Source: Sphingobacteriaceae bacterium
GTDB taxonomy: Bacteria; Bacteroidota; Bacteroidia; Sphingobacteriales; Sphingobacteriaceae
Reading direction: 5' to 3'
DNA length: 64,000 nt
Assembly: GCA_029266635.1 (NCBI GenBank)
Contig: JAQSWM010000001.1
Location: 62,001-126,000, forward strand
Part shown: positions 1,701 through 5,014 of the stretch, piece after piece
Layout: every line of letters begins with the position of its first letter
Position numbering within the stretch: the stretch's first letter is position 1
Notes under the pieces: model-generated
Database searches by the model: none
The model's input: the letters and a program-made list of their open reading frames with translations, nothing else
What the model was told of the DNA's origin: nothing
Program-made: the position numbers and the translations under genes

Positions 1701-2960
1701 TTAAAGATTAACCTGCCCGTTGTTGCAAACAACTATCACTCTTCCGGTAAGTTCCTGATTAAAAAACGGTGTGTTTGTAGATTTAGAGCGGTTTGTTTGT
1801 GAGTTTAATTCCCATTCAGCGGTCGGATCAAAAACAACGAAGTTTGCCTCTGCTCCTTCATTTAATTCAGGAACCGGCAGCCCTAAGATCGTTCTCGGAT
1901 TTACAGCAAGCTTTTCAGCGATAGCCTCCGGCGCAAGCCCCGCTTTCAGAAGTAATGGTAACACCGTTTGCAAACCTGTAATGCCGTAAGAGGCAATTTC
2001 AAACTCCACATCTTTAAACTCGATTTCATGCGGCGTATGCTGCGAAACCACCACATCGATTGTGCCGTCGTTCAGTCCTTTGAGCAGAGCTTTTACATCT
2101 TCGCGGGTACGCAGCGGCGGCTTAACTTTGTAATTGCTGTCGAAGCCTTCGAGCAAATCTTCAGTTAACACGAGATGATGGGCAGCTACATCGCAGGTCA
2201 CCTTTAAGCCCTTTTTCTTCGCCGCACGTATCAAAGCCACGCTTCCTGCTGCCGATATAGTGCTGAAGTGGATACGTGCATCGTTGTATTCGGCGAGGTA
2301 AATATCTCGGGCAACCATTATTTCTTCGGCCAAAGCCGGAATTCCTTTCATGCCCAAGTACGTGCTCATCCTCCCCTCGTTCATTTTGCCCTTTCCCGCA
2401 ATCTGCAAATCCTCGGCGTACGAAAACACCAAACCGTCAAATCCCTTCGCGTATAGGAGTGCCCGGCTCATTAAACCCGAATCTGCCACAGGCTTATTGC
2501 CATCGGTGAAAGCCACAGCTCCCGCCAAATGCATATCGTATAACTCTGCTAGGTCTTTGCCTTCGCGGTTCTGGCTGATCGCTCCAAGCGGATACACATC
2601 CACCAGATTTCCTTTCGTCCTATTCAGAATGTAAGAAACCTCGCTTTTCGATTGTACAGCAGGCTGCGTATTTGGCATAATGGCAACTCCGGTAAAACCT
2701 CCCGCCGCCGCCGCCACCGATCCCGATTCAAGCCCTTCCTTGGTTTCAAAGCCCGGTTCGAAAAAGTTGGCGTTTAAGTCAAAAAAACCGGGCGACAAGT
2801 ATTTGCCTTTACAATCAATAACATCGGCATTGCCAGGACTTTTAACAGAACTCCCGATGGCTGTAATTTTGCCATTGGTTATCAAAACATCGGCAGCTTT
2901 TTTATTGAAAGAAGATTCAGGATGGAGGATTGTGACAGATTGTAGTAGCAGTGTTTTCAT
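1701..2960 (-). CDS. Dihydroorotase-like protein lacking catalytic metal ligands
   Basis: 419 residues with the overall amidohydrolase fold order of type I dihydroorotase (PyrC): an N-terminal beta region, a GGFTGVAIMPNTQP motif near 87-100, an AAHHLVLT motif near 259-266 and a C-terminal beta region. Residues that bind the two zinc ions or catalyse are replaced. The HxH of the DxHxHxREPG motif is N63-A-N65; the His of the HAED motif is Tyr181; the second His of the HxxH motif is Thr234; the catalytic Asp of DHAPH is Gln307. In known families, such degenerate PyrC copies serve structural or regulatory roles, as with the inactive PyrC' bound to ATCase in Pseudomonas. No pyrB lies nearby. The start overlaps the BatA gene stop by 4 bases, indicating translational coupling. 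Confidence 0.85.
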   Translation of the reverse strand: MKTLLLQSVTILHPESSFNKKAADVLITNGKITAIGSSVKSPGNADVIDCKGKYLSPGFFDLNANFFEPGFETKEGLESGSVAAAAGGFTGVAIMPNTQPAVQSKSEVSYILNRTKGNLVDVYPLGAISQNREGKDLAELYDMHLAGAVAFTDGNKPVADSGLMSRALLYAKGFDGLVFSYAEDLQIAGKGKMNEGRMSTYLGMKGIPALAEEIMVARDIYLAEYNDARIHFSTISAAGSVALIRAAKKKGLKVTCDVAAHHLVLTEDLLEGFDSNYKVKPPLRTREDVKALLKGLNDGTIDVVVSQHTPHEIEFKDVEFEIASYGITGLQTVLPLLLKAGLAPEAIAEKLAVNPRTILGLPVPELNEGAEANFVVFDPTAEWELNSQTNRSKSTNTPFFNQELTGRVIVVCNNGQVNL

Positions 2961-5014
2961 CTACTGATGCTAAGTTTTGGCCCTGCGCCTTTATAGAACC
3001 GGATAAGAAGTATTTCGGCAGCTAAAAATAACAATGCAAGTATAAGGCAGATTTTCCAAAGCTGCGTGCCATCGTTAGCTGATTTCACTTCGTTTTTGAT
3101 GGAAGCCTTTCGGGCATTAAGAATATCTGTCTTAAATCCCGCTAAAGCAGTTTTCAAAGCAGCGTTGTCTGCATAGGTTAAATCCGATTCGCTGCGGTTG
3201 TCGTTAAAAGCGAATTCTGAAACGGGAGTGTTGCCTTTTAATAGGCTGTAATTCCCGTCTTCGCGGATTTGATCGGCAACGTAAAGCCTGGTGCTGTTCT
3301 CTGTTTGCTGAACATCGGGGATAATCTCAAAACTGCCTTTGCGTAGGGTAAAAGTCTGGTTTGCGGGCATGGTTGTCTTCTCGGTTTCGAGGAACTGATC
3401 ACGCCCCAGCGTGTAATAAAGCCGTTTGTCATGCAGGCTCAGGAGCGCTGCATTGTACATAATTGGTACAAAAACCGAATGCCGTACAAAGTTGCTGGCT
3501 TCGTCATTCAGAGGCACGGCGGACAAATAGACATTTCCTTTCCCCAGCTTGTACTGGCTGAAAAAGCTCTTTCCTCCGGCAAAATCAAGCACAGCTTGCC
3601 GGGTGGTGCGACTCTGATTACTGTAATTCAGATATTTCTTCGCGACAGGCAAATCGAGCTTTTGCGGAATGCGTTCAAAAACATCTGCGAAAAGCGGGTG
3701 CCTGATGTTGATGGAAGTTACTTTAGCTTCCTGCTGTACGATTCCTTGCGGGATGTCAGTGCCGAGGCTTTGAAGAAGTTGAGTCAAAGACGTCAGATCG
3801 GCTGTAAGCGTAGGAAAGATCATCAGATTGCCGCCATTGCTCACGTATGATTTTAGCTGCTGCGATAAACCGCTCGAAATCTCGCCTATTTCGTTCATGA
3901 TGATGAGCGGATAACTGGAAAGCCCGGAATAGTTGATGCTGCCCACGTCTGTGGTGTTGAGCTTGAAAAACGGGTCGGAGCGATAAACAGCCTGCAGGTA
4001 CGGATTAAAAGCTTTCTCGCTGATGGCCAGCACCGGCAGGCTTTGCTTTACATTGAAGGTGAAATAGAAATCATCGTCAAAAACCACCGGATAATCGGTA
4101 ATCTGAATCTGCCCTTGTTGCCATCCCGCACCTAAGCCGCTGAAAGATAAAGTATCTGAATTCGTTCCCCGAGGCTCAATCGTGAGGCTGGCGAGCGCTT
4201 TTTGCTGATTGTTTATAGTTAACTTAACAGGAATGCTTTCCGCTTTTTTATCGGAATTATTTCTAAGCCGCACCACCAGTCTTTCTGTTTCGTTAGGCTT
4301 GTGTATGGGCGAGGTAAACCAAACAGAATCTACAGAAACATTGGCAAGCTGATTGGCTTCGAGCCGCACCAGCCGAAGCGTGATGCCGCTATCGGACCTG
4401 GCTTTTTCTTTTCCCAGCAAGTTGTTCTGGAAGTCGGAGATGATGTAAGCCGTTTTGCGGGAATTCGGTTCACTCGTAAATACATCTTTTTGCCTGCGAA
4501 TAATTTGTGGCAATGTGCGGCTGAGGCTGCTGATTTTCACCTCATCAACCGCCGAGTTAAAATCCTCAAAGTTAAGCAAGCGCTGATGTTTGCCCTCAAA
4601 GTTATTGGTGAGCAGTTGGAATTTGTCGTTCAGCGAGTAAGCAGACGCAATTTCCTTTGCTCTCCGCTTCGCCTCGTCCAACAACGTGCCTTCCTTGTTC
4701 ACCGTTTCCATGCTGTAAGAATTGTCTATGAACACGCTCACAACCTGATTTCCGGCGTTTGCGCCGCTATCCTTTGCAGGGATAAATGGTTTCGCGAAAG
4801 CAAATACCAGGAAAACGATGGCCAGGATCCGGGCTATCAGCACCAGCAAACGCTGGACGTTTTTACTGGATGAGGTTTGTATCTCAATCTCCTTCAGAAA
4901 CTTAACATTGCTAAAATATACCTTTTTAAACTTCCTGAAATTGAAAAGATGGATGAGAATTGGGATGGCTACGGCAAAAAAGGCAAAGAGGAACTGAGGA
5001 AAAAGGAATCTCAT
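2957..5014 (-). CDS. BatA-type membrane protein with VWA-like domain
   Basis: 685 residues. The first 80 match the aerotolerance-regulator N-terminal (BatA) pattern: a membrane segment, then HLFNFRKFKKVYFSNVKFL, then a second membrane segment. A von Willebrand A-like domain follows, with VSVFIDNSYSME near residue 90 resembling the DxSxS metal site (the first Ser is Asn here). A long beta-rich periplasmic region precedes a last membrane helix near 655-675. BatA proteins in this phylum are linked to MoxR ATPases and envelope stress, but no moxR lies here. It is the first gene of the minus-strand cluster and shares its last four bases with the dihydroorotase-like gene. Confidence 0.85.
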   Translation of the reverse strand: MRFLFPQFLFAFFAVAIPILIHLFNFRKFKKVYFSNVKFLKEIEIQTSSSKNVQRLLVLIARILAIVFLVFAFAKPFIPAKDSGANAGNQVVSVFIDNSYSMETVNKEGTLLDEAKRRAKEIASAYSLNDKFQLLTNNFEGKHQRLLNFEDFNSAVDEVKISSLSRTLPQIIRRQKDVFTSEPNSRKTAYIISDFQNNLLGKEKARSDSGITLRLVRLEANQLANVSVDSVWFTSPIHKPNETERLVVRLRNNSDKKAESIPVKLTINNQQKALASLTIEPRGTNSDTLSFSGLGAGWQQGQIQITDYPVVFDDDFYFTFNVKQSLPVLAISEKAFNPYLQAVYRSDPFFKLNTTDVGSINYSGLSSYPLIIMNEIGEISSGLSQQLKSYVSNGGNLMIFPTLTADLTSLTQLLQSLGTDIPQGIVQQEAKVTSINIRHPLFADVFERIPQKLDLPVAKKYLNYSNQSRTTRQAVLDFAGGKSFFSQYKLGKGNVYLSAVPLNDEASNFVRHSVFVPIMYNAALLSLHDKRLYYTLGRDQFLETEKTTMPANQTFTLRKGSFEIIPDVQQTENSTRLYVADQIREDGNYSLLKGNTPVSEFAFNDNRSESDLTYADNAALKTALAGFKTDILNARKASIKNEVKSANDGTQLWKICLILALLFLAAEILLIRFYKGAGPKLSISR

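Follow-up and report, generated by a model that had tools for sequence, protein, structure and literature searches.

A Type-I Dihydroorotase Without Its Metal Site in Bacteroidia, a Probable PyrB-Holding Subunit of a Class-A2-Like ATCase

Introduction

The described systems that come closest to the protein dealt with here are: (i) the class A2 ATCases, in which a dead type-I dihydroorotase, named PyrC' or pDHO in Pseudomonas and PyrX in Sinorhizobium meliloti, coexists with a separate active dihydroorotase, PyrI being missing; (ii) the class A1 ATCase-dihydroorotase of Aquifex aeolicus (3d6n, 4bjh); and (iii) the fungal pseudo-DHO domain of CAD-like proteins, such as that of Chaetomium (5nnl), an inactive dihydroorotase kept beside ATCase. 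In Pseudomonas aeruginosa, pDHO is required for the formation of the active PyrB trimer, and the dodecamer is made up of six PyrB and six pDHO (PMC7053772). S. meliloti becomes auxotrophic for pyrimidines when its inactive pyrX is disrupted (PMC5929573). As for A. aeolicus, the metal ligands of its dihydroorotase (DHO) are His61, His63, Asp153, His180, His232 and Asp305, and three loops (A, B and C) that are disordered in the free subunit become ordered in the complex with ATCase, loop A coming after His180/Cys181 (PMC3880350).

The present work deals with an open reading frame (ORF) located in a 64,000-nucleotide stretch of DNA from a Sphingobacteriaceae bacterium (hereafter, the window) and with its counterparts in other Bacteroidia. 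The ORF very probably (at a rough probability of 0.84) encodes a dead type-I dihydroorotase that has been kept as a non-catalytic, unlinked, PyrB-holding subunit of a class-A2-like ATCase; it is therefore called PyrC' below. The features of class A2 were found in the window's genome, namely type-I homology, lost zinc ligands, a separate dihydroorotase and an ATCase without PyrI. But while the gene adjoins pyrB in the A2 systems, the Bacteroidia form is unlinked to it, lies in a cluster with BatA, DUF4199 and GT2 genes and constitutes a well-supported clade of its own. The class A1 protein of A. aeolicus is the nearest solved structure by both sequence and fold; however, the Aquifex protein holds zinc and becomes active upon association with ATCase, whereas the window protein is without five of the six ligands. 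In turn, the Chaetomium domain is fused and a distant sequence match (E 1e-7), whereas the window protein is free-standing. No description of an inactive dihydroorotase in Bacteroidota was found in the open literature, which is not proof of absence.

The Gene and Its Neighbors

The gene (1701-2960, minus strand; start ATG at 2960-2958, stop at 1703-1701) is a stand-alone ORF of 419 aa, with no fusion to ATCase or CPSase of the kind that characterizes the pseudo-DHO of CAD-like proteins. Its product is homologous to type-I dihydroorotases over the full length: it matches TIGR00857 with 367 bits (cut-off, 279), and its best solved relative is the A. aeolicus DHO (3d6n, E 2.6e-87). A structure model of the protein, built from 37 family members (pLDDT 83, pTM 0.86), has the ATCase-bound form of that same enzyme as its best fold match (Z 46, 36% identity). 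The dihydroorotase architecture that a preliminary description of the window, made from the sequence alone, had attributed to this minus-strand ORF is thus confirmed by the TIGR00857 and A. aeolicus matches.

Directly upstream lies a gene for a 685-aa membrane protein with a BatA N-terminal domain (2957-5014, minus strand; PF07584, E 5e-19), whose stop overlaps the start of the PyrC' gene by 4 nt (2957-2960), a stop/start overlap that the preliminary description had also reported. Downstream, on the same minus strand, an ORF of 143 aa (1267-1698) follows directly and is itself followed by (i) an ORF of 223 aa (577-1248) and (ii) a gene for a DUF4199 membrane protein (1-564) that runs off the window start and was read in locus L121; two GT2 glycosyltransferase genes come after DUF4199, outside the window. 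The conserved order of the cluster is BatA-PyrC'-(x)-DUF4199-GT2, and in the window's genome it is BatA-PyrC'-x-x-DUF4199-GT2-GT2. The two ORFs that separate the dead PyrC' from DUF4199 have no family match; a similar-looking ORF of 222 aa occupies, in genome G002, the position equivalent to that of the 223-aa ORF. This cluster is usually chromosomal; a small record of 12.5 kb, deposited as plasmid 2 of Rufibacter tibetensis (L327), also carries a dead PyrC' together with DUF4199 and GT2 genes, as the result of genuine capture or else of faulty assembly.

Loss of the Metal Site

Alignment to the A. aeolicus DHO (3d6n) places substitutions at five of the six metal ligands of type-I dihydroorotases: (i) residues 63-65, the former HxH zinc motif, now read N-A-N (2766-2774, minus strand), so that N63 and N65 stand for His61 and His63; (ii) Tyr181 (2418-2420, minus strand) replaces His180; (iii) Thr234 (2259-2261, minus strand) replaces His232; and (iv) Gln307 (2040-2042, minus strand) replaces Asp305, DHAPH having turned into QHTPH. 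The sole ligand kept is Asp153 (2502-2504, minus strand). Hence, the residues named in the preliminary description fall in the zinc-ligand columns where it had placed them, but its statement that every recognizable metal ligand had been replaced does not extend to Asp153. The window protein consequently lacks the ligand set of an active type-I dihydroorotase (HxH, Asp, His, His, Asp), and the substrate-site Arg (HxR) is also gone (F67).

The same pattern, with variations, runs through the class. An intact HxH was found at none of the 80 Sphingobacteriaceae orthologue loci; among 124 Bacteroidia loci, the motif is fully gone at 100, half gone at 19 and intact at 5, and no more than four of the six ligands are kept at any of the 124. 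The replacing residues depend on the lineage (Q, R, N, F or G at position 63; N, H, S, D or T at 65; T, G, S or N at 234) and, since they differ in this way, the change is to be seen as a loss and not as the emergence of a new shared site. Being fixed at the level of the family and differing among lineages at that of the class, the pattern goes far beyond chance.

It could be argued that the protein is still a working dihydroorotase, or some other amidohydrolase with a rebuilt active site, given that the fold, Asp153, Asn97, His308 and His311 are all retained. Nevertheless, the ligand positions vary among lineages without any shared new set of metal-binding or catalytic residues, and it is at the catalytic residues that conservation drops most with respect to active relatives, which makes such an enzyme very improbable.

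A functionless, decaying gene is harder still to believe in. PyrC' does evolve faster than PyrB (mean distances of 1.15 and 0.31, respectively), as decay would entail; but full-length open frames are present in nearly all of 131 genomes, mean column identity within the family is 72%, loops and glycines are strongly conserved, and the gene is retained in exact concert with one type of PyrB. The preliminary description had argued for selection on a dead dihydroorotase, and the sequences support this: the loss is class-wide, and frames and loops are conserved.

Origin of the Protein

In the other classes of the phylum, 30 out of 30 orthologues read keep all six ligands, and each of these has a pyrB (about 60% identical) directly upstream. 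This arrangement shows that the dead Bacteroidia protein descends from an active, pyrB-linked dihydroorotase. The Bacteroidia sequences group into a single clade in the tree (99/99), and the proteobacterial PyrC' into another (99/98); the union of both, with a support of 64/18, is neither supported nor rejected and, given that joining node, independent inactivation in Bacteroidia and Proteobacteria is not claimed here.

Co-retention With One Type of PyrB

A total of 148 Bacteroidia genomes were searched for PyrC', PyrI, PyrB, PRK09236 and BatA. A profile built from 47 orthologues separated the PyrC' matches cleanly into those with E ≤ 1e-109 and those with E ≥ 1e-62; the former, taken as orthologues, occur in 132 of the 148 genomes, one of them being the active copy of genome G072. 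In the window's genome, PyrB is encoded at C1:322283-323218, no PyrI was found, and pyrB lies some 257 kb away from the PyrC' gene, so that the adjacency that is the usual hallmark of A2 systems is missing.

Across these 148 genomes, the presence of PyrC' follows the type of PyrB, with no exception where both can be scored. PyrC' is present in all 129 genomes whose PyrB is at least 62% identical to that of the window's genome, while the 17 genomes without the inactive protein have a PyrB that is 33-49% identical, or none. The latter can be broken down as follows: (i) seven with PyrBI; (ii) four of family f89 plus G438, with a PyrB of 47-49%; (iii) G012 (43%) and G462 (33%); (iv) G420 and G449, with no PyrB; and (v) G072, with an active pyrB-pyrC pair. 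PyrI was detected in seven genomes, all of them without PyrC'; one further match to PyrI, sub-threshold and in a broken frame, was discounted. The association between PyrC' and PyrB type has a Fisher p of 2e-20, a value that overstates the independent evidence because the genomes are related; in any case, the joint change of PyrB type and PyrC' is seen in several separate families.

Two counter-cases, G406 and G500, have PyrC' (in G406, a divergent orthologue) but no detected PyrB, both assemblies being fragmented. Two other genomes, G412 and G468, seemed in a single-sequence search to have PyrB without PyrC'; they were discarded as exceptions, for they carry divergent orthologues directly downstream of BatA. 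Likewise, G462, which has a foreign PyrB and no PyrC', was dropped as a decisive natural swap: its BatA contig ends about 300 nt after BatA, and PyrC' may be missing because of a gap in the assembly. Within one family of genomes, foreign PyrB genes, 33-36% identical, were observed in G462 (C75:8256-9173, L312) and G503 (C52:8226-9119, L262 and L335); G503, the sister of G462, has both PyrB types and the dead PyrC'.

Some of the genomes without PyrC' have lost more than this protein. In G420 and G449, both of family f86, there is no PyrB, no PRK09236 above the cut-off and no PyrC', BatA being kept, and the two organisms are likely pyrimidine auxotrophs. In G072, the active-looking pyrB-pyrC pair (L234:3986-6340) is nearly identical to a plasmid pair of Hymenobacter volaticus (L328:2841-5221) and is a lateral acquisition; it substitutes there for three proteins, namely the ancestral PyrB, the dead PyrC' and the PRK09236-type enzyme, the last of these having no match above the cut-off.

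The BatA Neighborhood

The overlap with BatA had led the preliminary description to propose an envelope-linked scaffold or regulator acting with the BatA membrane protein. The linkage itself is old and common: BatA is directly upstream at 79 of the 80 Sphingobacteriaceae loci and likewise at most Bacteroidia loci, and the cluster extends beyond BatA-PyrC' to the DUF4199 and GT2 genes. But each gene is retained without the other, so linkage does not amount here to functional dependence. On the one hand, PyrC' is present without a BatA match in G002, G007, G033 and G111, and with only a weak one in G076; moreover, the two genes are unlinked in G489, G427, G017, G037 and others. On the other hand, BatA is kept without PyrC' in G420, G449, G492, G512 and G072, and in the last three DUF4199-GT2 comes directly after BatA, PyrC' being missing from between them. 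Furthermore, the partial correlation of PyrC' distances with those of BatA, given PyrB, is just 0.28.

Judged by retention, BatA is thus the usual neighbor of PyrC' and not its functional partner, and a partnership with BatA as the main function was rejected on the presence/absence data and the empty sites; an envelope-linked role is accordingly quite improbable. Over the 148 genomes, PyrC' tracks the type of PyrB, and neither its presence nor its absence depends on BatA, contrary to the envelope function that had been deduced from the linkage. Of the two proposals, a scaffold like the PyrC' of ATCase, which the present evidence supports by inference, is likely right, and the envelope link is likely wrong. 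There is a similarly slim chance that the emptied pocket has been re-used to accommodate either a ligand with a regulatory effect or a partner from the envelope, thereby tying ATCase, which catalyzes the first committed step of pyrimidine synthesis, to the BatA-DUF4199-GT2 cluster that surrounds the PyrC' gene across Bacteroidia.

Conserved Loops and Proposed Function

The structure model contains three stretches that combine low confidence (pLDDT) with conservation, all on the minus strand: (i) residues 183-206 (2343-2414), which by their position probably correspond to loop A of A. aeolicus; (ii) residues 272-285 (2106-2147), with K278, P281, P282 and R284; and (iii) residues 308-328 (1977-2039), with H308, P310, K316, A323 and G326. 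The last two would be the counterparts of loops B and C. When the positions of the loops were shifted circularly, conservation as good was obtained in 1 of 419 shifts for the family (the unshifted one being counted) and in 14 of 419 for the class. Besides, 14 of the 47 columns that are conserved at ≥90% throughout the class fall within the 59 loop positions (p 0.003). These conserved, non-catalytic residues are largely those of the proteobacterial PyrC', which have the same residue in 81% of the 47 columns vs. 37% overall.

Distance matrices point in the same direction, the partial correlation between PyrC' and PyrB being 0.82 given PRK09236 and 0.84 given BatA; however, the first of these values falls to 0.48 without the fast family f78, near the controls (0.35-0.41), so this is a supporting line of evidence only.

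From co-retention and loop conservation, we infer that PyrC' binds PyrB. If the A. aeolicus and Pseudomonas complexes are taken as a guide, (i) a dodecamer would arise from two PyrB trimers linked by PyrC' dimers; (ii) PyrC' would stabilize the active PyrB trimer; and (iii) loops lacking order in free PyrC' would become ordered against PyrB. For Bacteroidia, the existence and stoichiometry of such a complex and the need for PyrC' in ATCase activity are predictions drawn from those systems. The ATCase partner may also act as a regulator by sensing a ligand in its emptied pocket, a refinement that is compatible with the scaffold reading. The pocket has indeed been re-filled lineage by lineage (Q307-H308-T/R-P in Sphingobacteriaceae), which is compatible with a new ligand; but in P. 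aeruginosa the effect of nucleotides was put down to destabilization of the complex and not to allostery (PMC7053772), and this added role seems unlikely, albeit less so than the envelope-linked or catalytic ones.

If PyrC' is indeed a PyrB-holding subunit, the range of class-A2 ATCase, described in Proteobacteria, would come to include the greater part of a major class of bacteria. The loss of PyrC' is then predicted to cause pyrimidine auxotrophy, even though no catalytic step would be removed. Finally, a subunit gene would have been relocated away from its partner into an unrelated cluster with the partnership kept, which calls for caution when function is assigned from gene neighborhood.

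The Separate Dihydroorotase

The preliminary description had recommended looking for another dihydroorotase in the genome, and one was found: a PRK09236-type protein (G000:C16:30002-31327) that scores 735 bits (cut-off, 535). A dihydropyrimidinase is also encoded in the window's genome. PRK09236-type proteins exceed the cut-off in 136 of the 148 Bacteroidia genomes and, since several PyrI-bearing genomes offer no other candidate for a dihydroorotase, are presumed to be the working enzyme. Judging from sequence, it is presumably this separate enzyme that would carry out the dihydroorotase step beside PyrC'.

On this evidence, a great number of Bacteroidota genomes carry the annotation "dihydroorotase" on a gene that does not encode one, and metabolic models or essentiality screens in which PyrC' and the PRK09236-type enzyme are taken to be redundant would err.

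The PRK09236-type dihydroorotase of the window's genome (also read as L002:1393-2784) has a Gln where HxH would have its first His (DDQVHFREPG). That Gln occurs in 34 of 35 Bacteroidia PRK09236-type sequences, the remaining one having His, and the Lys, His, His and Asp are retained.
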